Position numbers and translations under genes: made by a program. A stretch of 39,141 bases of DNA from NCBI GenBank assembly GCA_016186945.1, contig JACPKR010000063.1:1-39141 (forward strand), written 5' to 3'. Below the pieces are notes generated by a model that searched no databases, had not been told where the DNA came from, and saw only the letters and a program-made list of their open reading frames with translations. This document shows positions 2 to 33,763 of this stretch, one piece after another. Each line of letters begins with the position of its first letter. Position 1 is the first letter of the stretch. This DNA is from Deltaproteobacteria bacterium (GTDB lineage Bacteria > Bdellovibrionota_B > Oligoflexia > Oligoflexales > Bog-1112).

Positions 2-109
2 TTGAACTGGCAGCATCACGCAATAGACTCTGGTGTTTTTAACCAGCGAGTAGGTCAAAAGATAAATGTTATAGAAAGTACTGTTGCAAGAATTGGTCTT
101 GTCAACTAA
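2..109 (+). CDS. 3' end of an unidentified gene cut by the left window edge
   Basis: One frame is open from the first bases to a TAA at 107-109 and reads as 35 residues ending in ARIGLVN. It could be the C-terminus of a gene that begins to the left of the window. A frame this short stays open by chance fairly often, and no family is recognisable in it. It sits directly before a transposase remnant, so the gene may itself have been cut or fused by that insertion. Function unknown. Confidence 0.35.
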   Translation: MNWQHHAIDSGVFNQRVGQKINVIESTVARIGLVN

Positions 110-116
110 ATCTTAG

Positions 117-281
117 CAGACACAGATTTTACGACGGTCCCGACATACCATCGAGAATTTGTTTGCAAAGTTGAAACAATTTCGAGCTTTTGCGACCAGA
201 TTTGACAAATTAAAAAGAAATTATGAATCCGTTGTAGCTGTCGTTTGTTCAGAGACTTGGCTAAGGCTGACTACAAATTGA
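117..281 (+). pseudogene. C-terminal remnant of an IS5-family transposase
   Basis: The frame 117-281, ending in TGA, has no start codon and follows an in-frame TAG. It encodes about 54 residues including HTIENLFAKLKQFRAFATRF, then DKLKRNYESVVA and a final ETWLRL. This is the typical end of IS5-group DDE transposases: the (I/V)EN.F..LK.(F/W)R..ATR(Y/F)DK signature that carries the last catalytic Glu. The N-terminal DDE residues are absent, so it is a dead fragment, perhaps of an old insertion at the edge of the polysaccharide locus. The family call is from recall of the motif. Confidence 0.72.
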
Positions 282-19615: not shown

Positions 19616-19735
19616 GATTTTTCCTTGACTGCCTTGCTCTTGCTTTTAATCGAGGCTAGCAGTTTAAGCACTCTCCCGCAAGCGAATCTAATCGGGTTTC
19701 GCAAAGCGTAAACCAACCGGGGCAAGGAGGTGGTT

Positions 19736-19764
19736 TGGAGGAAACTGCGCAGCTGGTTCCTCCA
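19736..19764. repeat. Inverted repeat (hairpin)
   Basis: Perfect 8-bp arms TGGAGGAA and TTCCTCCA enclose a 13-base loop that itself contains CTGCGCAG, a perfect palindrome. It could act in RNA as a terminator for the 625-residue gene, although it has no T-run. Confidence 0.55.
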
Positions 19765-19775
19765 AGAAATCCTTT

Positions 19776-19843
19776 GGGGGAGCGACCCTTCGCTTTGCTC
19801 AGGGCAGGCTTTTCCCTCGCCCCCCCAACCCCCCCCTCCCTAT
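19776..19843 (-). repeat. Family 2 repeat, copy 1 (expanded)
   Basis: GGGGGAGCGA ... TCCCTCGCCCCCCC and the pyrimidine tract ending TCCCTAT match copies at 26159-26203 and 33711-33755. The loop is enlarged by about 26 bases (19787-19812) reading CCTTCGCTTTGCTCAGGGCA, absent from the other copies. That inserted piece is partly palindromic and looks like a second element nested in the first. Confidence 0.65.
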
Positions 19844-21821: not shown

Positions 21822-22204
21822 GCGAGTGAAAATCCCTACGAAGTTCGCTATCAGTTAGCGCTTCGGTAGAGCGGAGGGATGAGTTAAGTTTGGCTCCCAC
21901 TCTTAGAAGGGTGAAATCTTGCTTGAACGCACAACATTCTCCTTAAAATTTCCATTTTCCTAAACTATAAATTCTCATCTATAGTGTTCAAGATAATCAA
22001 TTTGGGGACAAACTTTTTGAAAAAAGTTATTTCCCCAGCCCCTTTTCAAAAACTTCAATATCTAAAGTTTTTTGGGGGGAGGCGTGGATGGGAACTTTTT
22101 TTCAAAAAAGGTCCTCTCCACAAATTCTTTTTCCCAAATACCATAGGGGAAAAAATGTGCGAAAATAGTAAAAGCACTCCCCCTTTCAAGTAAGAGAGAC
22201 GATT
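21822..22204. other. 383-bp divergent gap containing a full family 1 repeat
   Basis: Between the 625-residue gene (-) and prc (+). About 165 bp of ordinary A+T-rich spacer, which should hold the promoter of the minus-strand gene, is followed by the 154-bp repeat at 21987-22140. The remaining 60 bp before prc contain an A-rich stretch and AGAGAG, the likely prc ribosome binding site. No small gene is credible. Confidence 0.6.
21987..22140 (-). repeat. Family 1 repeat, copy A (full length)
   Basis: The most complete of four copies, in minus orientation relative to the others. Read on the minus strand it consists of a left module with a 38-bp near-palindrome (22084-22121), a core CCTCCCCCCAAAAAACTTTA followed by GATATTGAAG, and a right module with a hairpin (22004-22036) that ends ATTGATTATCTTGAA. 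Matches copies at 24368, 30167 and 32987. It lies in the leader region of prc. Confidence 0.85.
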
Positions 22205-24361
22205 GTGACTAAAATTCCCGGATTTCTGAAGAGACAGTGGCTTTTCACCTTTGTCGCGTTCGCCGTCAGCCTCCCGCTTTTTGCCCTGGATTGTAAAAGC
22301 GTCAAGCTGATCACGACTCTTTACCTCCAGACCCATTTTTCCCAGCATGTCCTGGATGAAACAATCAGCGAGCGGACCCTTAAAAATTTCATCACCGCCT
22401 GGGACCCGGGGAAAGTCGTTTTTCTGAAGAGTGATGTGGAACGCTTCTTCGCCGATTACAAAAAAAGACTGCCCCAAATGATTGCGCAATCGGACTGTAG
22501 CGCGCTTAACGATATCTTCAACATTTACTCCCAACGCTTCGAGGAAGGGTTCAAGGACATCAAACCACTGATTGACTTAAAGCACGACTTTACGCTCGAC
22601 GAACACATGAACATCGACCGAAAATCACTCGCCTACGTTAACGATCGCAAGGAGCTAAAAGAGCGTTGGCGAACAAGAATCAAATTCCAACACATGCAGC
22701 TCAAGGAAACTATCCCCGACGACAAGGAAATCAGAGAAAAGCTATACAAACGCTACGACCTCCAACTCAAACGTCACCACGAAATCAATTCGGACGAAGT
22801 CTACGAGATATTCCTCGATTCTGTGGCGACAGCCCTGGATCCTCACTCCGACTATTTCTCGCCTTCCCAGCTGGAAGATTTCCACATCTCAACACGCCTA
22901 TCGTTGGAAGGTATCGGCGCTCTCCTGCGAAGCGAAGAAGGGATCACTCGCATCCATAGCCTTGTTCCCGGCGGAGCAGCCGAAAAGTCAGGCAAAATCA
23001 TGGTCGGTGACAAGATCGTCGCCGTTGCTCAGGGAAAAGAAACCCCGGTCGACGTTATCGACATGGACCTTCGCGAGGTTGTCAAACTCATCCGTGGCCC
23101 ACGGGGGACTGAAGTTCGCCTTACCATCCGAAGAGACGGGTCGGAATTCATCGCCCCTATCATCCGCGAAAAAATCGAACTCAAAGATCGCGCGACAAAG
23201 TCAGTCCTCCATGAAGTCCAGGAAATGAAGGCAAGCCCCCAAGGCCCACTCCTCAGAGGGCATGAAAAAACTAGGCATGAAAAAATTGCAAAAACTTACA
23301 AAATCGGAGTCATCGACCTTCCCTCCTTTTATATAGACTTCGAGGGAAGGCATGCAAAAAAGGACGACTTTCGAAGCTCCTCCCGCGATATTGCTAAGGA
23401 AATCAAGAAACTGGAAGGGCAAAAAGCCGACGCCATCATAGTCGATCTCCGCTCAAACGGAGGAGGCGCCCTTGATGAAGCTATAGACATCGCGGGTCTT
23501 TTCCTCGGCCCAGGCCCCATCGTGCAAGTTAAGAAAGCGCAAGGAAACCCCTACATTAACACCTACTCGGGGAAGCAAATCTACCAAGGCCCTCTCATCC
23601 TGATGATCAACCAGCAGTCGGCAAGCGCAAGCGAAATTATGGCTGCTGCCATCCAGGATTATGAACGCGGTCTGATCGTCGGAGGTTCCCACACTTTCGG
23701 TAAAGGGACCGTGCAAAACGTGAACGACCTCGACCCCAAACTGGGAGCGATCAAAGTGACCATCTCGAAATTCTACCGAGCCTCGGGCGGTTCCACCCAA
23801 CTCAAAGGGGTAGCGTCCGATATCGTCCTGCCGTCGATCATCGAGCATTACGACATCGGAGAAAAATTCTACGACTACGCCCTGCCGTGGGAGATGATCA
23901 AACCCGTCCCCCACCGCAACTTCAATATGATCCGCGGCCACCTTTCGGCCCTACAACTGGCTAGCGCCAAGCGACTGAAAGCTGACGAAGGGTTCGTGAA
24001 AATTCAAGAAGCCATCAAGGAATACAAAGAGAAGGAAAAAGAACGCTACCTTGTCGACCTAAAGATAAAGAAGAAAGAAAAAGGCAAAGAAACAGAAAAA
24101 CTGGAAGCCGAGCTGGAAGAAGATGAAGATGTCGAAACGAAACTGTCTGACGACCTTCACCTTCAAGAAACTCTACGAATCGCCACCGACTACGTCAGGC
24201 TTCTTAAAAAAGAAAAGCTAAGTGACCTGGAAATCGTAAGCCTAAAGAAGGAAGCAACGAAAACCGCAGAGAAGAAAAAATCCAGCCCAAGGAAAACCGA
24301 GATACCCTTGGATAAACCAGAGTCACCACCCAAGGAACTCATCCACGAAGTCACTCCCTAG
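22205..24361 (+). CDS. prc: Tail-specific (C-terminal processing) periplasmic protease Prc/Tsp
   Basis: A 718-residue S41 serine protease like E. coli Prc, which degrades or trims periplasmic and lipoprotein substrates. An N-terminal signal peptide (hydrophobic LFTFVAFAVSLPLFAL, then D-C) is followed by a helical domain, a PDZ domain (LSLEGIGALLR ... GKIMVGDKIVAV, about 238-320) and the catalytic domain. Ser474 in SASASE, Asp485 in IQDYERG and Lys500 in TFGKGTVQ fit the Prc catalytic triad. The C-terminus is very rich in Lys/Glu. An insertion of about 25 residues with a duplicated (R)HEK motif lies between PDZ and protease core (about 339-363). GTG start. It is flanked on both sides by family 1 repeats. 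Confidence 0.93.
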   Translation: MTKIPGFLKRQWLFTFVAFAVSLPLFALDCKSVKLITTLYLQTHFSQHVLDETISERTLKNFITAWDPGKVVFLKSDVERFFADYKKRLPQMIAQSDCSALNDIFNIYSQRFEEGFKDIKPLIDLKHDFTLDEHMNIDRKSLAYVNDRKELKERWRTRIKFQHMQLKETIPDDKEIREKLYKRYDLQLKRHHEINSDEVYEIFLDSVATALDPHSDYFSPSQLEDFHISTRLSLEGIGALLRSEEGITRIHSLVPGGAAEKSGKIMVGDKIVAVAQGKETPVDVIDMDLREVVKLIRGPRGTEVRLTIRRDGSEFIAPIIREKIELKDRATKSVLHEVQEMKASPQGPLLRGHEKTRHEKIAKTYKIGVIDLPSFYIDFEGRHAKKDDFRSSSRDIAKEIKKLEGQKADAIIVDLRSNGGGALDEAIDIAGLFLGPGPIVQVKKAQGNPYINTYSGKQIYQGPLILMINQQSASASEIMAAAIQDYERGLIVGGSHTFGKGTVQNVNDLDPKLGAIKVTISKFYRASGGSTQLKGVASDIVLPSIIEHYDIGEKFYDYALPWEMIKPVPHRNFNMIRGHLSALQLASAKRLKADEGFVKIQEAIKEYKEKEKERYLVDLKIKKKEKGKETEKLEAELEEDEDVETKLSDDLHLQETLRIATDYVRLLKKEKLSDLEIVSLKKEATKTAEKKKSSPRKTEIPLDKPESPPKELIHEVTP

Positions 24362-24367
24362 CTATAA

Positions 24368-24463
24368 TATTTGAGAAAAAGAATTTGTGGAGAGGACCTT
24401 TTTTGAAAAAAAGTTCCCCTCCACGCCTCCCCCCAAAAAACTTTAGATATTGAAATTTTTGAC
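24368..24463 (+). repeat. Family 1 repeat, copy B (left module and core)
   Basis: Left module TATTTGAGAAAAAGAATTTG, the 38-bp near-palindrome (24387-24424) and the core (CCTCCCCCCAAAAAACTTTA and on) are present. The right module is missing after TGAAATTTTTGA. It fills the space between convergent prc and ABC exporter genes, so the palindrome may serve as a two-way terminator. The core's last 20 bp are coding sequence of the ABC gene. Confidence 0.85.
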
Positions 24464-26143
24464 AAGTTCCGCCTTGCCCCGTTCAAATCTAAGAATCTTC
24501 TTGCAATGTTCGATCGTGGAAAGGCGATGGGCAATCACAATCACACTCTTCCTGGAAAAGATATTGTCGATTGCTTTCTGCACCAAGCGCTCACTCTCAG
24601 GATCCAAAGCTGACGTCGCCTCATCTAATACAACAAGGTCCGGATTGCGTGCCAAGGCACGTGCAAAAACGATAAGCTGCCTTTGTCCAAGTGATAGATT
24701 CGAACCGTCTTCCCTCACCCACTCCTCATATTGACCGGGTAGTGATGTCACGAATTCATGAATTCCGACCAAGTTAGCAGCAGCCACGATTCCTTCTCTG
24801 TCAAGTTCCGGATGATCCAGGCTGATGTTAAACGCCACAGTCCCGTTAAACAAAACAATATCCTGCGGTACAATGGCGATTCGTTTTCGCAGCTCGAAGG
24901 GTTCCAAGTCCGCAAGTTCCCGTCCATCTATGTAAATGTGTCCCCGGTAACCTTCATACTGCTTGGTGAGAAGCTTAACCACCGTCGATTTTCCTGCTCC
25001 CGTAGGTCCCACAAGGGCCAAAGACTCTCCTGGCTTCAGCTCGAAGTTAATTCCCTCGAGCGAAAAGTCAGCGCTGTTAGCTGCCCGCTTACGCATCGGG
25101 TAGGTGAAATTCACGTCCGAGAACTCGACATGCCCCGCAATATTCGCAAGCTTCCTCTCTCCTCCGATGACTTCACTATGGTCCATCAACTTGAAGATGC
25201 GGTCCATCGACGTAAACACGCCCTGCAAGGTCGAAATCGTCTGCCCGAGCTGTTTGAGTGGGTCGAAAATCTGCTGCACGTAACGTACGAACGCCACCAC
25301 CACCCCTGCCGTTAGTGTGGGATCCGCCCCAAATCGCATGAATATTAACCAGAGAATCATACCAATCGTAACAGACGCTATGCCGTCCAAAACCGAGAAG
25401 AGGAATGAATCGAAGACTACCGACACCATCTGCGCATCTCGAAAACGCGCACTTAAGTCCTTGTGCTTCCTGAGAATAGCCCCCTGGGAACCAGTTAGCT
25501 TTATCGTGGCCACGCCCTGCAAACTTTCTTGCGTAAACGCATTCAGAAAGGCCAAATTCTTCCTTGCTTCCAGGTAAGAATGTTTTATCTTTTTCGAAAA
25601 CCAGGCAACGATGACCAACACGAGAGGCAAGCTAAGGGACGCAAGAACTCCCAGGAAGGGATGCAGAACAATCATACCCACGATGCAGCCCAGAAGAACC
25701 ACTATGTCGACCAAAGACTGCAAGGTTCCCTGAGTCAACGAATCCGACAGTGCGTCAAACTCACTTGTCGTCCTGGTGACTAAAACACCACTCAGATGCC
25801 GGTGGTGAAAATGCTGCGACTGTCGCAATAGATGCCTGCTCAACGCACCCCGCAAACTCCTAATCATTCGCTGGACCACAAGAGCTGATCCTATCGCCTG
25901 CACCCCGCGAAAAACATATTCCAGAAGGATCAAGCCCAGAAAGATCCCTGAAAAATAAACGAGAGCAGTGATGTCATTGATCATCACACCGTCATCAATC
26001 GCATATTTCAAAACGATAGGTTGGAAAAGCTGGACTACAGAAATCAGAGGAATCAGAAATATACTAAGGATCAAAATTCCACGCTGATCACGGACATAAG
26101 GCCAGAGCTTCTTTAATTCTTTTAATTCATTTAGAAGTTGCAT
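24443..26143 (-). CDS. Heterodimeric ABC exporter subunit (canonical Walker B Glu, degenerate signature)
   Basis: A 566-residue half-transporter: six membrane helices (about 15-310), then an ATPase domain with Walker A GPTGAGKST (about 378-386), signature LSLGQRQL (about 482-489) instead of LSGGQ, Walker B LVVLDEATSALD (about 503-514) and the switch His in AHRLST. It resembles YheH/LmrB-type type IV exporters that export lipids or drugs. It overlaps the partner gene by 17 bp. The protein ends LVKNFNI-stop, and these last codons and the TAA are the core of a family 1 repeat, which has replaced or extended the native end. Confidence 0.9.
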   Translation of the reverse strand: MQLLNELKELKKLWPYVRDQRGILILSIFLIPLISVVQLFQPIVLKYAIDDGVMINDITALVYFSGIFLGLILLEYVFRGVQAIGSALVVQRMIRSLRGALSRHLLRQSQHFHHRHLSGVLVTRTTSEFDALSDSLTQGTLQSLVDIVVLLGCIVGMIVLHPFLGVLASLSLPLVLVIVAWFSKKIKHSYLEARKNLAFLNAFTQESLQGVATIKLTGSQGAILRKHKDLSARFRDAQMVSVVFDSFLFSVLDGIASVTIGMILWLIFMRFGADPTLTAGVVVAFVRYVQQIFDPLKQLGQTISTLQGVFTSMDRIFKLMDHSEVIGGERKLANIAGHVEFSDVNFTYPMRKRAANSADFSLEGINFELKPGESLALVGPTGAGKSTVVKLLTKQYEGYRGHIYIDGRELADLEPFELRKRIAIVPQDIVLFNGTVAFNISLDHPELDREGIVAAANLVGIHEFVTSLPGQYEEWVREDGSNLSLGQRQLIVFARALARNPDLVVLDEATSALDPESERLVQKAIDNIFSRKSVIVIAHRLSTIEHCKKILRFERGKAELVKNFNI

Positions 26144-27857
26144 TTTTTTCCTTTTCGAGGGGAGCGACGGTTTCCTCGCCCCCCTCGATCTTCCCCTCTC
26201 CCTTCTTTAAAATGAGGAACTTGTTGCAAGCATGAAGTGAGATGGGCCGGTGGCTCACAAGAATCACGCTGCTCCCCATTTTCCTCAGCTCATCTACCAA
26301 ACGCTTCTCCGTCTCTTGATCGACAGCTGCTGCCACATCATCTAGCAGTAAGACGGGAGGCTTACGGAGAAACTGCCTCGCCAAGGCGATACGCTGCTTC
26401 TGTCCCCCCGATAGACGGACCCCCTTCTCTCCCACGAGAGTTTCCAGCCCCTCATCCATCCTTTGAATTTCCGGAAGAATCTGCGCTCTCCGCAAACTGT
26501 CTTCAAGTTCCACCCCGGACACGTCCCTTCCCATCGCAAGATTCTCAGCAATGGAACCCGAGAAGATAAAGGGTGTCTGAAACACCAGGCCCAAGCTCTC
26601 CCGCAAGTTCCCCAGTGGGATTTCTAAAATATCCTGCCCCCGAAAAAAGATCGTCCCAGGGGGAGGATCATAGAGGCGTGTCAATAAATGAAGAAGTGTA
26701 CTCTTTCCCGTTCCAATCGGCCCCGAGATTCCTAGAAACTCACCCTCCTGTAAGTCAAAACTGAGGTCTCGCAAAACCGGCAGCCTTTCGCGCTCATAAG
26801 TGAACGTCAGGTTTCGCACAGAAAGGAGAGGCCCCGACTCACCTAGCTGACTCTTCGTCCCTTCTTTTTCCAAAACCGACTTTTCTTTCTCTATTTCCTC
26901 CAGCTCGTTCAATCGTTCACCTGCCGACCGGGCACGTTGGTACAAAGCGAGTATGATGCCAATCGCCGTAAGAGGAAAACTGAGCAAGGCAATATAAATG
27001 TTGAACGCAAGGATATCTCCCACCGTCAGCTTGTTTTGGATAATCTCTCGGCCCCCATAAAACAGGATCGCAAGGTAGGACAAGCCCGTAAAAAAAGTCG
27101 AGAGAGGGAACGTGAACGTACGCACCATGACAAGTTTGATATTGGCATCGTAGACGTCTTGCACCGACCTTGCGATTCGCCGGACGAAACTTTCGACGGC
27201 ATCGTTAGCCTGGACTATGTCCACATGCCGATATGCCTCCGTTACACTGTGGGTCAGATCGCCCAAGGTCGACTGTTGCAATTTCGAATATTTGTGGAAC
27301 AGAGGAGAGGCCAGCTTTGCTACGGCAATCATGCAAAAGAGGGGCGCCAGGGAAAGAATAGTCAGCACAGGGTTAACGCGCCACATGTTATAAATCGCAA
27401 AACTAAAGAGAAAGAGGAAGTTCACAACCTGCAAGACACCAAATGCAAAGAAGGCTCGCAACTGCGCAACGTCGTTCGCCAGACGGGACACAAGGTCTCC
27501 AAGCGTCCGTTTCTGAAAAAAAGGCAGGGGTAAATCGAGAAAATGCGCAAAATAGTGGTCCTTGATTTCCGTCTCAATCTGCCTTCCTGGCCAAAAGAGA
27601 AAAAGTCGAGACAGAGCGCGGATGATCATCTGCAAGAAACCTAAGCCTATGATGAGGTAAATGGTCTCTTGAATACTATTCGCTTCTCGAAATTGAAAAA
27701 AACCGTCAACTACCCGCTTGGAAAGGTAGGGGATGTAAACCGTCACCCATGTGGTCCCAAGAAGAGCAAGAACTCCCACAAGATACCAAAGCCAATGAGG
27801 CACAGCAAAACGCCTGCCGATCTCCCATACCGCCTGCTTAAAAAAAGTGCCTCTCAA
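26127..27857 (-). CDS. Heterodimeric ABC exporter subunit (degenerate Walker B)
   Basis: A 576-residue half-transporter like YheI/TM287. Six membrane helices are followed by Walker A GPIGTGKST (about 378-386), a perfect signature LSGGQKQR (about 483-490) and Walker B LLLDDVAAAVD (about 503-513), in which the catalytic Glu is Asp. Together with the LSLGQ signature of the partner this makes one degenerate and one canonical ATP site, the pattern of known heterodimeric exporters. TTG start with AGGA upstream; overlaps the ATPase gene before it by 20 bp. The C-terminal tail 552-567 is encoded by a family 2 repeat. Confidence 0.9.
   Translation of the reverse strand: MRGTFFKQAVWEIGRRFAVPHWLWYLVGVLALLGTTWVTVYIPYLSKRVVDGFFQFREANSIQETIYLIIGLGFLQMIIRALSRLFLFWPGRQIETEIKDHYFAHFLDLPLPFFQKRTLGDLVSRLANDVAQLRAFFAFGVLQVVNFLFLFSFAIYNMWRVNPVLTILSLAPLFCMIAVAKLASPLFHKYSKLQQSTLGDLTHSVTEAYRHVDIVQANDAVESFVRRIARSVQDVYDANIKLVMVRTFTFPLSTFFTGLSYLAILFYGGREIIQNKLTVGDILAFNIYIALLSFPLTAIGIILALYQRARSAGERLNELEEIEKEKSVLEKEGTKSQLGESGPLLSVRNLTFTYERERLPVLRDLSFDLQEGEFLGISGPIGTGKSTLLHLLTRLYDPPPGTIFFRGQDILEIPLGNLRESLGLVFQTPFIFSGSIAENLAMGRDVSGVELEDSLRRAQILPEIQRMDEGLETLVGEKGVRLSGGQKQRIALARQFLRKPPVLLLDDVAAAVDQETEKRLVDELRKMGSSVILVSHRPISLHACNKFLILKKGEGKIEGGEETVAPLEKEKNATSK
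26159..26203 (-). repeat. Family 2 repeat, copy 2 (inside coding sequence)
   Basis: On the minus strand it reads GGAGAGGGG, then GGGGGGCGAGGAAACC and GTCGCTCCCC, matching 33713-33752 almost base for base over about 40 bp. Here it is in frame within the exporter subunit gene and encodes KGEGKIEGGEETVAPL. The other two copies are between genes. Confidence 0.7.
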
Positions 27858-28551
27858 TACGTTTTTCCTTTTCCTCGGAACTCAGGGAGTCCCAGCCTAT
27901 AAGAGGAGACAAAAGCCCCTCATCCAAGAGAAACACTTTCCGACAGAGTTTGACAACAAATGAAAGTATATGGGTGGAAAGAAGGGTGCTTTTTCCTTCC
28001 GCATGTCTCCTTTGAATCGCTTGCTCCAACGTGTGAATGTGATAGAGGTCAAGTCCGGAAAATGGCTCATCCAAAACTAAGCAAATGGGATCATGCAGGG
28101 TGGCAAGAGCAAGTCCTACCCTCTTTTGCATCCCGAAGGAACATACCGCCAGAGGTCTCTTCTGAAATTCCTCGCAATCCCAGAAGGCGAGAGACTCCTT
28201 CACCCTCTGCTTTCTATCAGACAACCCATAGAGAGATGAGGCATAGGACAAGATTTCGCAGGCTGTCACCCACTTCGGCAAATGCATGATCTGGGGAAGA
28301 TACCCAATCTGCCTTTTCAACAGAAATCGCTCCGGAAGGAGCCTCTCACCCCTGAAGAAAACCTCCCCCTCACTCGCGTCCATATTACCCGTGAGAAGCT
28401 CGAACAGCGTTGACTTACCCGACCCATTTGCCCCTAAAAAAGCGACTGTCTCGCCATACCCAATACTTATATCCCTCCCCGCAAATACAAAATTCGGAGG
28501 AAAAGACTTTTTCAAATACTCTGCCTCTATCAGGGGACTTCCCTCACGCAC
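27838..28551 (-). CDS. ABC transporter ATP-binding protein
   Basis: A 237-residue ATPase of the ABC-2 (CcmA/NodI-like) group. Walker A GANGSGKST (about 38-46), Q-loop in LPQIMHLP, an atypical signature CSFGMQKR in place of S-S-G-M, Walker B CLVLDEPFSGLD and switch His in LLSTHIL are visible. It overlaps the permease gene upstream by 8 bp and the exporter gene downstream by 20 bp, so the four minus-strand genes form one operon. It powers the 373-residue membrane protein. Substrate unknown. GTG start. Confidence 0.88.
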   Translation of the reverse strand: MREGSPLIEAEYLKKSFPPNFVFAGRDISIGYGETVAFLGANGSGKSTLFELLTGNMDASEGEVFFRGERLLPERFLLKRQIGYLPQIMHLPKWVTACEILSYASSLYGLSDRKQRVKESLAFWDCEEFQKRPLAVCSFGMQKRVGLALATLHDPICLVLDEPFSGLDLYHIHTLEQAIQRRHAEGKSTLLSTHILSFVVKLCRKVFLLDEGLLSPLIGWDSLSSEEKEKRIERHFF

Positions 28552-29665
28552 GATAAAACCTCCCCTCCTGGGACTGATAACCGTAGTACACTATGAGCGG
28601 CATCAAAAGTAGAGAAAACCAAGTGGCATAAACTGCCGTCGCCGCAAAAATGCCAGACAAAAAGGTTAGCAGAATCGTCAGAGCCGCTCGTCGGGCATCG
28701 ATTTGAAATAATGCGAAAGGGACCATCCACACAGGAATGAACGTCACGGCGAACGCTCTCAATCCTTGGTCGAAAAACTGACCCGCGTCACTATTCGCCG
28801 CACCTATGCACCAAGCAAAGGCATTACAGACTGCCAGAAGCAACGCAAGGATCGTAGCTGTCAACGTCAAGTTATGCATATAGAGCCTATGAGAGACCCC
28901 CAGACTTTTCTCAACCCACCCATATTGAACGTCATCCGAATATTGGAACGCTAAGGCACAAGCCCCCAAGAATCCGACCATAAACGACGAGCCAAAGACT
29001 GCCACAAACGGAATTTCCGCTACACCGACAAGAAATGAGATCCCCATAAACAAAAGAGACAAACCCAGGCAAAATTGCGTGATACGGTTCCGAAAAAAGA
29101 TTTGCCACAGGCGCCATTGAACGAGGGCCAGCAACGGAGAACCCGCAAACATGGAAAGCTTCCCCCCCTCCCTAGCTCCTCGCTCCTTCATAAGCCAGGA
29201 ACCCAGGCTCACCAGCAGCAAGATGGAGAACACCACGGCCGTCTTGGCTCCCATCCAAGCAACCAGAACAGTGTCCACAAACCACCACAAGGGGCCGTAG
29301 ACTCCCATGAACAAAAGGAAGACGTGGAACACTCCGAGAACCCTGATTACCCCTGGGCGTTCTCCCAGAATTTCAATCCTGTTGACAAGGCTGCTCGGCA
29401 TCGCATAGAAAGTCCGGCACCAACGCCCGATCGAAAAAGCTCCTCCAAGGAGGAGGCCCCAAGCGAGGACTTCAGCAAAACGATCACGCATGGCCATCGA
29501 CAACTTCGCTAGCTCACTATTGAGAAAATCATCGAATATATAGTAAAACAGACCAAGCAATACCAAGCTGCACAAGCCCACAATAAGCTCCCGAATAAAA
29601 TCGTGACGCAGCCTATGCACAAAACTGAATAGGTGAATTTTTAGAAGAAGCAAGATTCGGAACAT
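28544..29665 (-). CDS. ABC-type permease partner, polytopic membrane protein
   Basis: A 373-residue hydrophobic protein with about nine to ten membrane helices and short charged loops. It has no ATPase motif and no clear family motif by eye. The 8-bp overlap with the following ATPase gene identifies it as the permease of that transporter, probably ABC-2 type. The ATG start lies 81 bp after the stop of the histone-like gene, and that gap contains two hairpins. Substrate unknown. Confidence 0.75.
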   Translation of the reverse strand: MFRILLLLKIHLFSFVHRLRHDFIRELIVGLCSLVLLGLFYYIFDDFLNSELAKLSMAMRDRFAEVLAWGLLLGGAFSIGRWCRTFYAMPSSLVNRIEILGERPGVIRVLGVFHVFLLFMGVYGPLWWFVDTVLVAWMGAKTAVVFSILLLVSLGSWLMKERGAREGGKLSMFAGSPLLALVQWRLWQIFFRNRITQFCLGLSLLFMGISFLVGVAEIPFVAVFGSSFMVGFLGACALAFQYSDDVQYGWVEKSLGVSHRLYMHNLTLTATILALLLAVCNAFAWCIGAANSDAGQFFDQGLRAFAVTFIPVWMVPFALFQIDARRAALTILLTFLSGIFAATAVYATWFSLLLMPLIVYYGYQSQEGRFYRA

Positions 29666-29686
29666 GGTGGTTTCTCTGGAAAATGC

Positions 29687-29723
29687 GAGGCAGAGGGAAT
29701 CTGCCTCGGAAAGGGAGCCCTTT
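29687..29723. terminator. Two tandem hairpins after the histone-like gene
   Basis: GAGGCAG/CTGCCTC (29687-29693 and 29701-29707, 7-bp perfect stem, 7-base loop) and AAAGGG/CCCTTT (29710-29715 and 29718-29723) stand between the histone-like gene and the permease gene, both on the minus strand. No long T-run follows, so they may be partial terminators or mRNA-stabilising stems. Confidence 0.45.
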
Positions 29724-29746
29724 CACTGAGAGGCAGTAACGGGAAG

Positions 29747-30010
29747 CTATTCCATCTCAGCCATTTCCATTGGATTAACGGCGACTGCTTTAGGAGCGCG
29801 CTTTTTTCTGCGAGAAGCTTTCTTCTTGGCTTTACGCTTTCCTGCTTTAGAAGCTTTCCTGCCAGCTTTTTTACGAGCTTTCTTTGCGGCTTTCTTCTTC
29901 TTGGCCTTCCTAGCCTTTTTAGCAGGTTTACGTGCTGCTTTTTTCCTAGAAGCCTTTTTTTTCCTAGAAGCCTTCTTCTTCGCTTTCCTAGCTTTCTTTA
30001 CCAAAACCAT
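29747..30010 (-). CDS. Histone-H1/Hc2-like lysine-alanine-rich DNA-binding protein
   Basis: A small (about 87 residues) extremely basic protein made of Lys/Ala/Arg repeats such as KKARKAKKKASRKKKA, ending in an acidic-neutral tail NPMEMAEME. This composition matches bacterial histone-H1-like proteins (chlamydial Hc2, Bordetella BpH1, AlgP tails) that bind and compact DNA. A frame continues upstream to 30079, but GAGGAGG (30011-30017) fixes the start. ATG at 30010 lies directly after it, while TTG at 30004 has the better spacing. The gene has internal tandem repeats (CCTAGAAGCCTTTTTT-like units, 29945-29975). Its leader is unusual (see the features at 30036 and 30061). Confidence 0.85.
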   Translation of the reverse strand: MVLVKKARKAKKKASRKKKASRKKAARKPAKKARKAKKKKAAKKARKKAGRKASKAGKRKAKKKASRRKKRAPKAVAVNPMEMAEME

Positions 30011-30035
30011 CCTCCTCAAGTTGAAAAGAGTGTTT

Positions 30036-30054
30036 AAAAAAACCCGACACCGGG
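30036..30054 (-). terminator. Terminator-like hairpin in the leader of the histone-like gene
   Basis: On the minus strand CCCG-GTGT-CGGG is followed by seven T. The stem is only 4 bp. It lies between possible upstream promoter sequence and the ribosome binding site of the histone-like gene, so it may act as an attenuator. A chance motif is possible because the stem is short. Confidence 0.45.
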
Positions 30055-30060
30055 ATTTGA

Positions 30061-30097
30061 AGACAATTCTTAAAGACAATTCTTAAAGACAATTTAA
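30061..30097. repeat. Tandem 13-bp repeats upstream of the histone-like gene
   Basis: AGACAATTCTTAA occurs at 30061-30073 and 30074-30086, followed by a third partial unit AGACAATTTAA (30087-30097). On the coding (minus) strand each unit reads TTAAGAATTGTCT. Spacing just over one helical turn would suit repeated protein binding. Confidence 0.7.
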
Positions 30098-30166
30098 TCA
30101 TAACACAACACGAGAAATGCTTTAACAATTTTTAACAACAAAAAAATAATACGTAACCCGTTTATG

Positions 30167-30263
30167 GCCTCCCCCCAAAAAACTTTAGATTTTGAAGTTT
30201 TTGAAAAGGGGCTTGGGGAAAGAACTTTTTTCAAAAAGTTTTTCCCAAAATTGATTATCTTGA
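30167..30263 (+). repeat. Family 1 repeat, copy C (core and right module)
   Basis: The core CCTCCCCCCAAAAAACTTTA with TTGAAG is followed by the right hairpin GGGGAAAGAACTTTTTTCAA...CCC (30215-30246) and the end ATTGATTATCTTGAA, which matches copy A exactly. The left module with the 38-bp palindrome is missing. It sits between the divergent histone-like (-) and flippase (+) genes. Confidence 0.85.
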
Positions 30264-30277
30264 ATATTACATAGGCT

Positions 30278-30305
30278 TTGACAGTCAAGGTTTTCGTGGT
30301 ATCTT
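30278..30305 (+). promoter_or_regulatory. Possible sigma-70-type promoter for the flippase-ligase operon
   Basis: TTGACA (30278-30283), a 16-base spacer and TATCTT (30300-30305). It directly follows repeat copy C. If used, it overlaps the putative TTG start at 30304, so translation would have to start further downstream. Confidence 0.35.
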
Positions 30306-31767
30306 GCCCTGTCAAAAATTGCCAAAATTCAACGCTTGGTTCTATGTGATTTACAAAAAAAGAGTTTCCATTGCCGTGCTTTCTGGGTTGCTGGTTGAGA
30401 TGCTCAATAAGGTAGCCCCGCTGATCATCATTCATTTTGCCCAGAAGCGTTTGGGGATCGAAAAATTCGGTTTTGCTCTGTTCGGGATTTCTGTCATCGA
30501 GCTTGTCACGCCTTTCATTGTGTTTGGTTATAATCAGTTTGGCATCCTTGCGGCGGGTAAAAACCAGGTCTCCATGGACCGTCTCATTGGCAATATGTGG
30601 TTTTTGAAATGTTTCCATTTTCTTCTACTTCTTGTCTTTTTATTTATGTTTTTCTTTTTTGTTCCCGCTTACCGAAGCTATTTTTCGCTCATAGCAGCGG
30701 TGAGTTTTGTCCTTGCCTTCGGTGTCATTGAGTCTATCTGGGTTCAGACAGCAAGTCAGAGGGTCTTCGTTACCAACATCATTGTCGGTCTGTGCCGTTT
30801 TGCAGGTGTCATCCTCATTCTCCTTTTTGTGCGTGATCCAGACGATGCCATTCTCTTTGCGATTCTGTCTCTACTTCCCCCCGCGCTGGTCAACCTCCTC
30901 TCTGCCATTTACAGTCTGCACCGTTTCGGTATCAGAATGCCCGAGAGGGACCAATGGAAACTCATGTTTCGCAATGCCAGGCCCTTTTCTCTCATTGTAC
31001 TGTTTGCCATCTGTTTAGAACGAATGGACATTTTTATTGCGGAACATTTTGGGGGTCTAGTCTGGGCAGGACTCTATGCAGGTTGTTCACGCCTGGCACA
31101 CAGTCTTCAGCAGATTGCGAATACCATCAATACAGCATTTTTTTCCGAAATGATAGCTGTTGACGATAGAAATTCCCTGAGCACTCACATGAAAGTCAGT
31201 ATCTGGAGCCTTCTTTTTTTCCTATCTCCGATCATCTTTGGCGTCTGGTTTGTGGACGAAGAGATACTCACCTTAATCTTTGGCGATCATTTTAGGCCGG
31301 TAGCGAAGCTCCTCGGTTGGCTTTTCCTTTCGGCCTCCTTAAGCCTTGTCATCGTCTCATTCGGAGAGCAGGTTCTCCTTGTCAATCAGCAGACGCGAAA
31401 ATATTCTAAAGCCCTCTTCCTTGGTCTTGTGAGTGGCTTGTCCCTTTCCTACCTAGGTGGGAAAAGTGGCAACTTGCTGTACATTGCATGGGGCATGTGT
31501 GGAGGGAAATTGATCGCTACATTATTAATAGCAAGAGAGTCAAAAAAATACCTGACGGATTTTCCCTGGGGGGCCATCATAAAGGCACTCTCCCCTGGCA
31601 TGCTCATGGCTTTTTTTCTCAAACTTCTCAAGCTGGACGGACTGGTGCCCAACCTCTCTGTAGGGGCAGCGATTTTTCTCCTCGCTGGGTATTTCTTCAA
31701 TAGGCAGGAATTTTTGAATGTTTTTCGTATCTACCGTCACATGATGTCAAAGGAAACGACCCCATGA
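30304..31767 (+). CDS. Wzx-like polysaccharide flippase (MATE/MOP superfamily)
   Basis: Up to 487 residues, with about twelve to fourteen membrane helices and short loops, as in Wzx flippases that move undecaprenyl-linked repeat units across the inner membrane. The N-terminal segment with GFALFGISVIELVTPFIVFG matches the oligosaccharide flippase pattern. No other flippase is in the window, so this one may serve the locus at 1-19.6 kb. The start is doubtful: the TTG at 30304 lacks a ribosome binding site and overlaps a possible promoter -10, and GTG at 30346 is an alternative. It is joined to the next gene by a 4-bp ATGA overlap. Confidence 0.82.
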   Translation: MPCQKLPKFNAWFYVIYKKRVSIAVLSGLLVEMLNKVAPLIIIHFAQKRLGIEKFGFALFGISVIELVTPFIVFGYNQFGILAAGKNQVSMDRLIGNMWFLKCFHFLLLLVFLFMFFFFVPAYRSYFSLIAAVSFVLAFGVIESIWVQTASQRVFVTNIIVGLCRFAGVILILLFVRDPDDAILFAILSLLPPALVNLLSAIYSLHRFGIRMPERDQWKLMFRNARPFSLIVLFAICLERMDIFIAEHFGGLVWAGLYAGCSRLAHSLQQIANTINTAFFSEMIAVDDRNSLSTHMKVSIWSLLFFLSPIIFGVWFVDEEILTLIFGDHFRPVAKLLGWLFLSASLSLVIVSFGEQVLLVNQQTRKYSKALFLGLVSGLSLSYLGGKSGNLLYIAWGMCGGKLIATLLIARESKKYLTDFPWGAIIKALSPGMLMAFFLKLLKLDGLVPNLSVGAAIFLLAGYFFNRQEFLNVFRIYRHMMSKETTP

Positions 31768-32981
31768 TGAACTTGCTACACGCTCCTCTTTTTCCAATCT
31801 ATCTGCTACTTGTGTCGCTTCCCTTTGGGCCGGCCGTACAGAATTTCATCGCAGGAATCGTGTTTGCACTTCTTTTGTTTCGCTTTGTGAGTCTTCCCAA
31901 GGGTGAACGATTTTCGATTCCCCCTACCGTTATGGGAGCGACTCTTGCAGGCCTTACTTATGCAGCTTGGCTGCTGATCAGCACGCTTGTTAACCCTCTG
32001 ACACACCCCTCCCTTGCAGGCAAATTCACCGGCATTCTTTTCTGGCCACTGCTCCCCCTTCTGTTCGCCAAAACCACCCCGTCCCTTCGTACCGAGCAAA
32101 TACGGACACTGGGAAAGGTTCTCGCAGTCCTCTCTTTTCTTTGGGGCCTTGTCATGATTTCCCAATCGCTGAGTGGTTGGAGAGTCTCTGGCGCAACCTT
32201 TATATTTGATGAACCCCGACCAAGGGGGTTTTACTCCCATCCCCTCACACTGGCTTACACCCTCGTCATTTTCTGGCCCCTTGCTGTCAACTGGATAAAA
32301 CGAGATCGCTCCCATCTCTGGTCCTGGCTTTTTTTCCTGGGTATCTGCTCGGGCATCATCCTAACCCAGTCTCGTACGGTTCAAATCGTTGCTGTTTTTG
32401 CCGGAGCCTATGTGTTTCTCAAACGTAGTACGTGGACATTTAAGGTTGGGACACTTGCCGGTTTGTGTTTGGCCGGCGCACTCCTTTTCTCCACCGACAA
32501 CGCTCTTACCCGAAAATACCGGGACACCTTCACGGAAAAAGGAGTCGACAAACATAGCAACTATGCCGACGATCGCTTGGCGTTTTGGCATGTACACATG
32601 GGAATGATCGGCGAACGTCCCATTCTCGGACATGGGTGGGGCATCGACGACGATTACCGCAGACCTTACTATGCGAAGATTGGATTAATAAACTTCATCA
32701 AGCCCTATCCGGCCCATAACACCTATCTTGAAATCCTTACGGAAGGTGGCGTAGTCGCCCTACTCGTCTTTTTCGTGTGGCTTATCTGCTTTCTGGCTTT
32801 TTTCGCCCAACTTTCCGAGCCTATAAGAAGCATAGCCTTCCAAACCTTCGCCTGCCTCTTCCTTGCTGCACTGACGCAAAACGCCTTCCAAGACTTCGAA
32901 GTCAGATGGGCCCTCACTCTTTTTTGTGTAGGCACCATATTGTCTGCTCGTGAACTTCGTCGCCAATCTGCGTTACAATAA
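31764..32981 (+). CDS. O-antigen ligase/polymerase (WaaL/Wzy_C family)
   Basis: A 405-residue membrane protein with about ten to twelve helices. The large periplasmic loop in the C-terminal half holds RLAFWHVHMGMIGERPILGH and PAHNTYLEILTEGG, the conserved RX...HN.YL pattern of WaaL and related ligases. It therefore either joins finished polymer to lipid A-core or polymerises repeat units. It overlaps the flippase stop (ATGA) and ends six bases before family 1 repeat copy D. Compared with the product of 2853-4079 it is the closer match to the ligase family. No waa core genes are nearby. Confidence 0.85.
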   Translation: MMNLLHAPLFPIYLLLVSLPFGPAVQNFIAGIVFALLLFRFVSLPKGERFSIPPTVMGATLAGLTYAAWLLISTLVNPLTHPSLAGKFTGILFWPLLPLLFAKTTPSLRTEQIRTLGKVLAVLSFLWGLVMISQSLSGWRVSGATFIFDEPRPRGFYSHPLTLAYTLVIFWPLAVNWIKRDRSHLWSWLFFLGICSGIILTQSRTVQIVAVFAGAYVFLKRSTWTFKVGTLAGLCLAGALLFSTDNALTRKYRDTFTEKGVDKHSNYADDRLAFWHVHMGMIGERPILGHGWGIDDDYRRPYYAKIGLINFIKPYPAHNTYLEILTEGGVVALLVFFVWLICFLAFFAQLSEPIRSIAFQTFACLFLAALTQNAFQDFEVRWALTLFCVGTILSARELRRQSALQ

Positions 32982-32986
32982 TATAG

Positions 32987-33103
32987 TATTTGGGAAAACG
33001 AATTTGTGGAGAGGACCTTTTTTGAAAAAAAGTTCCCCTCCACACCTCCCCCCAAAAAACTTTAGATATTGAAGTTTTGGAAAGGGGCTTGGGGAAATAA
33101 CTT
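32987..33103 (+). repeat. Family 1 repeat, copy D (left module, core, start of right module)
   Basis: The left module with the 38-bp palindrome (33006-33043), the core, and GGGGCTTGGGGAAATAACTT of the right module are present. It breaks off exactly at the ATG of the ImmA-like gene. It is the entire intergenic space between the ligase gene and that gene. The GGGG at 33091-33094 lies nine bases before the ATG and may serve as ribosome binding site. Confidence 0.85.
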
Positions 33104-33712: not shown

Positions 33713-33755
33713 GGAGAGGGGGGTTTGGGGGGGCGAGGGAACCGTCGCTCCCCCA
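33711..33755 (+). repeat. Family 2 repeat, copy 3
   Basis: AGGGAGAGGGGGGTTTGGGG, then GGGCGAGGGAACCGTCGCTC and CCCC. GGGGGCGA and TCGCTCCCCC can pair into a hairpin with one bulged base. It fills most of the 51-bp space between two convergent genes and so may act as a transcription terminator in either direction. Matches 26159-26203 closely and the flanks of 19776-19843. Confidence 0.7.
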
Positions 33756-33763
33756 ATGAATTT

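Follow-up and report, generated by a model that had tools for sequence, protein, structure and literature searches.

We analyzed a family of hairpin-rich repeats, four copies of which lie within 11 kb of a 39,141-nucleotide contig (the window; JACPKR010000063.1, assembly GCA_016186945.1) of a Deltaproteobacteria bacterium in the order Oligoflexales. With a probability of roughly 0.92, these repeats form a lineage-specific family of non-autonomous miniature inverted-repeat transposable elements (MITEs) of the IS630/Tc1-mariner type. The family is new and specific to its lineage; the kind of element, an IS630-type bacterial MITE, is a known one. The original prediction, made from the window alone, had likened the repeats to MITEs, to repetitive extragenic palindromes (REPs) or to a mobile terminator. 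The guess of a MITE was right: the repeats are dispersed, carry terminal inverted repeats with TA ends, and one of their sites is unoccupied at the orthologous position in a relative of the same genus. With it, a poorly studied bacterial lineage gains a lineage-specific MITE family of many copies, whose ends link it to a same-genus IS630 element. Within one genome, the MITE is seen shortening genes, donating stop codons, breaking into apparent modules, and acquiring and multiplying REPs.

Structure of the element and its copies in the window

A profile built from 28 complete copies gave a 167-bp consensus (TATAGTATTTGGGAAAAAGAATTTGTGGAGAGGACC...CCCCAAATTGATTATCTTGAACACTATA), to which the window copies were aligned. 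The element ends are imperfect inverted repeats of ∼25 bp, and three internal hairpins occupy consensus positions 25-62 (left), 63-107 (central) and 108-142 (right). Most copies with both ends measure 166-168 bp, a sharp length class. The mean divergence of the 68 copies in this class from the consensus is 4.6%, with part of the differences at subfamily-diagnostic sites. The RNA fold is much more stable than that of shuffled sequences on either strand (z -5.5). As expected of a MITE, the element is short, has no transposase gene inside and is present in high copy number. The copies in the window (coordinates include the terminal TA) and their left hairpins, each a 38-bp near-palindrome, are as follows.

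21980-22145, minus strand: copy A, the complete 166-bp element with both terminal repeats and its three hairpins, flanked by divergent genes
24363-24466, plus strand: copy B, left-anchored (consensus 1-104), between convergent genes, holding the stop and last codons of an exporter gene
30167-30271, plus strand: copy C, right-anchored (consensus 63-167) with a mutated right end, between divergent genes
32982-33103, plus strand: copy D, left-anchored (consensus 1 to ∼124), between tandem genes
22084-22121, minus strand: left hairpin of copy A
24387-24424, plus strand: left hairpin of copy B
33006-33043, plus strand: left hairpin of copy D

All four are thus copies of a single element: A is complete, B and D are left-anchored, and C is right-anchored. 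In the profile alignment, copies A to D covered consensus positions 2-166 (minus), 2-104, 63-165 and 1-125, respectively. The intact match of copy C runs from 30167 to 30269 (consensus 63-165), and its mutated end ...ATATTACA reaches ∼30271. Copy D follows immediately on the TAA of the gene before it and extends to the ATG of the gene after it.

All four copies had been predicted at essentially these places and at gene borders, with a core of ∼45 bp common to all, a left module with a 38-bp palindrome shared by A, B and D, and a right hairpin shared by A and C. These claims were borne out, the core being the part that all four copies have kept. The proposed construction from separable modules stood only in part: real interior variants occur elsewhere in the genome, but what looks like modules in the window is mostly a single 167-bp element in different states of deletion, copies B and D being without the right part and copy C without the left part. 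It is also true that no copy lies in the 19.6-kb polysaccharide part of the window, although this absence is not significant (2.1 copies expected, P(0) = 0.13).

Genome-wide distribution

The source genome (G000; 2.66 Mb in 76 contigs, 91% complete, with the window as contig C58) was searched with a pattern for each module, allowing up to 3 mismatches. The core gave 160 matches vs. 4 for the reversed pattern used as its control, the left hairpin 174 (control 1), the right hairpin 124 (control 0) and the terminal repeat 291 ends (control 0), both ends fitting one 25-base pattern. This search, which the original prediction had proposed as a check, revealed a dispersed family with unrelated flanks, and from the module counts we estimate ∼175-200 MITE copies in the genome.

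Detailed analysis was carried out on 1.49 Mb of stretches chosen around copies, covering ∼56% of the genome and ∼78% of the copies; the counts given below refer to this sample unless stated otherwise. Because the share of each module that was caught is similar (76-79%), the sampling does not visibly bias module proportions. The sample contains 157 copies (92 two-ended, 46 left-anchored, 16 right-anchored and 3 with the core only), which cover 1.5% of its sequence. The broken ends of deleted copies adjoin neighboring genes. Several of the copies that appear left-only have retained the outermost bases of the right end as well and are therefore internal deletions. The family is mostly intergenic: by the calls of a simple in-house gene caller, only 9 of the 157 copies lie mainly within genes, while 86% of the sequence is coding.

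Insertion sites and the link to IS630

TA is found at both element ends, and the flanking bases show a preference for cTAg, with C at -1 in 47% and G at +1 in 59%. No sign of a target duplication beyond TA was detected in the flanking bases, and a search for intragenomic empty sites with joined flanks returned self matches only. An IS630 preference for TA in CTAG is reported in the title of Tenzen and Ohtsubo (1991), as listed among the references of PMC2170065, and a purified IS630-family transposase has been shown to duplicate TA (PMC2170065). We infer that the TA is a target duplication and not part of the element. The TA at both ends, the CTAG preference and a TA at the junction of the unoccupied site described below are all as expected of an IS630-type element.

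The only same-genus genome (G001) contains a fragment of an IS630 (DDE_3) transposase gene. Downstream of it, at ∼115 bp, lies an end (TATAGTTTTCGGGAAAATTAATTTGGGG) with 23 of 28 positions identical to each end of the source-genome element. The MITE thus has terminal repeats in common with an IS630-family element, the partner being in the sister species and not in the same genome. The pattern search for terminal repeats was made independently of the search for transposases. A second end resembling that of an insertion sequence (IS), similar to the MITE ends, lies at a contig edge in G001. This genome also has a MITE of its own, 146 bp long and with similar ends (L169:2311-2456, contig C142); its interior, read by eye, holds a CGTC-like palindrome pair different from the one in the source genome. 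IS630 loci of other genomes gave no good match to the MITE ends. No copy of the 167-bp element was detected in 57 other genomes of the phylum, and collections of phages, plasmids and viral contigs yielded no copy and no similar sequence; the amplification therefore looks lineage-specific. Two contig ends in the source genome (C29 and C64) were considered as the ends of a collapsed autonomous IS and rejected, as both proved to be MITE variants with REP cargo, one of which includes a tandem array.

An unoccupied orthologous site and the effect on neighboring genes

Copy B lies between two convergent genes.

22205-24361, plus strand: tail-specific protease gene (TSP_NTD, PDZ, Peptidase_S41 and DUF3340 domains), whose 3' end was used for the comparison with G001
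24443-26143, minus strand: ABC exporter gene, with its 3' end inside copy B
24443-24445, minus strand: element-borne TAA stop of the exporter gene, inside copy B

The same convergent pair, protease and then exporter, is kept in G001, where the site of copy B is unoccupied. The protease ends ...ACTCCCTAG in both genomes; G001 then continues TTAATGAG (TTAATG), and the source genome has C-TA followed by the element. The exporter ends ...GKVLEEGSHEKLISNRGLYYKLSQSLI in G001 and ...GKAELVKNFNI in the source genome, with the final residues and the stop within copy B. Copy B, or the deletion of its right half, has therefore shortened a real gene, at the conserved C-terminus of the exporter. In the sample, copies contain the stop codons of 49 genes, of which 37 read into the element from its left end. 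The stops cluster at element positions 3-5 (TAG, 15 cases) and 10-12 (TGA in a TTTGAG subtype, 8 cases).

Several observations weigh against an IS630-type MITE. Profile search detected no DDE_3 (IS630) transposase in the source genome and homologue searches nothing credible, in an assembly that is 91% complete, and the transposase genes of G001 are fragmentary. The sole unoccupied-site comparison is between species, on the left side only, and involves few conserved bases. In the outermost bases (1-12 and 155-167), private changes are ∼3.5 times as common as in the interior (25-142), and neither plain transposon decay nor ends needed for transposition would predict ends that vary more than the interior. 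This excess could stem from erosion of the ends, from gene conversion or from selection acting on the interior. MITEs are not defined by a transposase in the same genome and may persist after their partner is lost; given a degraded IS630 relative in G001 and none detectable in the source genome, the family is likely orphaned now.

Mobilization in trans, loss of the transposase and the order of events below are what we infer for the MITE. The IS630 element that founded the family probably resided in this genus, and its transposase would have recognized the ∼25-bp terminal repeats in trans. Insertion would occur at TA, preferably in CTAG, with the TA duplicated. Insertions persist in the spaces between genes and at the 3' ends of genes, to which the end of the element supplies a TAG or TGA stop. 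Later deletions may strip one side up to the neighboring gene, producing the apparent modules of the window. Some interiors would also have been swapped, or entered by REP palindromes of the CGTC/TGTC type, and the resulting variants then multiplied with the MITE.

Interior variants and REP cargo

Between the same ends, the interior comes in versions giving elements of 83 bp (no core), 167 bp and 176-334 bp. In the 176-334-bp forms, a pair of palindromes, (T/C)GTC-ATCCCGCGG-CTTGA-CCGCGGGAT-CCA, sometimes in tandem, takes the place of the core. This REP cargo is the most interesting feature of the family. A search that fixed tag, stem and tail (up to 4 mismatches) and left loop, stem perfection and dimer type free found 80 units, with 77 TGTC and 3 CGTC tags; the loop is CTTGA in 74, the 9-bp stem is perfect in 74, and dimers are tags-out in 24 cases vs. 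tags-in in 1. CGTC REPs are defined by a CGTC or TGTC tag, an 8-9 bp stem starting with AT, a 4-5 nt loop, a CCA tail and mainly tags-out dimers (PMC3733652). The cargo units, with their TGTC/CGTC tag, 9-bp stem from AT, 5-nt loop, CCA tail and tags-out dimers, fit this published definition.

The units lie between two MITE ends in 37 of the 80 cases, near one end in 17 and near none in 26. An identical 30-bp REP unit occurs at the same position of the 167-bp element at five loci with different flanks, which indicates that the element multiplied after REP entry; this exact 30-bp entry left no visible target duplication. CGTC REPs have been reported without a dedicated transposase (PMC3733652), and the cargo bears on the open question of how they spread without a known transposase of their own. 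A tentative answer, to which we give somewhat less than even odds, is that CGTC-tagged REPs are dispersed by IS630-type MITEs acting as their vehicle: REPs would enter the MITE and be copied genome-wide by IS630 transposition in trans. As the MITE of the sister species holds a different CGTC-like pair, the MITE-REP association may be general in the lineage.

Comparable arrangements have been described, with GTAG-15 dimers of Anabaena variabilis in TATAGG...CCTATA palindromes and CGTC-1 dimers of H. neapolitanus in 41-bp palindromes (PMC3733652). In those two species the outer palindrome was not identified and REP-free copies were not found (PMC3733652), whereas the source genome has versions both with and without REPs, and their carrier can be recognized as an IS630-type MITE. 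Tandem arrays of CGTC/TGTC-type REP units or their parts were also observed (L093:3823-4058, L127:13640-13795 and L069:18784-18932); one contains a run of N, so these arrays are unstable or hard to assemble.

Alternative explanations

A local segmental duplication yielding just the four window copies, which the original prediction had named for the case that the genome held no others, has a negligible probability. Four copies in 11 kb is slightly above the genome average, a mild clustering (P = 0.03), but ∼160 core copies with unrelated flanks occur genome-wide and have already refuted it. A palindrome family of the REP or bacterial interspersed mosaic element (BIME) type, spread by a tyrosine (RAYT/IS200) transposase, would also be hairpin-rich and intergenic, and REP units are present in some variants. 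It is very improbable in view of the inverted terminal repeats, the TA/CTAG sites, the fixed 167-bp length and the ends matching an IS630 element, a judgement made on these features of the repeats and not on a search for RAYT genes. The REP-type label proposed earlier thus applies to the cargo of some variants and not to the element itself.

It is rather unlikely, though less so than the preceding two, that the same MITE is now retained as functional RNA hairpins downstream of genes, acting as a terminator or a stabilizer of mRNA 3' ends. In its favor, copies between tandem genes are oriented with the genes 61:30 (P = 0.0015), left-anchored exceed right-anchored copies 40:13 (P = 0.0003), left hairpins outnumber right ones genome-wide, and folding is strong on both strands. 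Selection on the left hairpin, stop codons at the left end or a deletion bias could each cause the left and orientation biases, and the left-end stop codon in particular is an alternative cause of the orientation bias. Against the retention of functional hairpins, only 5 compensatory changes were counted vs. 192 broken pair cells. A several-fold extra conservation of the left hairpin disappeared after exclusion of subfamily-diagnostic columns, leaving a smaller difference between interior and ends. The mobile terminator proposed earlier is not supported in its intrinsic form, as a terminator scan found no such site (GC-rich stem then T-run) in any of the four window copies. An effect on RNA stability or Rho-dependent termination may exist. 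Rfam contains no matching family, with hits only far below gathering scores.

Comparison with known elements

The IS630-type MITE was set apart from RUP, NEMIS and BOX by published descriptions, not by sequence alignment. RUP is a short intergenic pneumococcal MITE with ∼110 copies and TA ends, attributed to IS630-Spn1 because its terminal repeats match (PMC2229807, PMC3049150). The present element is alike in being short, intergenic and TA-ended and in its attribution to the IS630 family by terminal repeats. In contrast, RUP is 107 bp long, belongs to Streptococcus, is unrelated in sequence by description, has no reported REP cargo, and has its partner IS in the same genome; here the partner is found only in the sister species. 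Correia/NEMIS elements are likewise TA-ended MITEs with two length classes set by an internal block and with fusions to open reading frames, but their sequence is different, with 24-bp terminal repeats and lengths of 107 and 155 bp (PMC2229807). BOX elements are modular interspersed repeats with variable internal units and encode the stop codon of 36 pneumococcal genes (PMC3049150), a similarity to the copies that carry gene stops; they differ in having boxA/B/C modules and ISSpn2-like terminal repeats, and are unrelated in sequence by description. QMITE1 and QMITE2 of Coxiella burnetii (∼50 copies each) also overlap gene 3' ends and supply C-termini, but their direct repeats are variable, 2-3 or 7-11 nt, and not TA (PMC5896051).

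Minor observations

A lone right-end remnant (CTATAGTGTTCAAG) at L115:14810-14823 lies ∼90 bp upstream of a near-complete copy (L115:14905-15062), which suggests repeated insertion or decay at one site; a check for a tRNA or tmRNA gene interrupted by a copy in L115 found none. The source genome also has other dispersed repeat families, for which, in the 1.49-Mb sample, GGGGGCGAGGGAACCGTCGC gave 122 matches (control 1) and CAAACCACCTCCTTGCC 299 (control 4). In the window, these other families are present at 19721-19835, 26158-26184 and 33718-33763.

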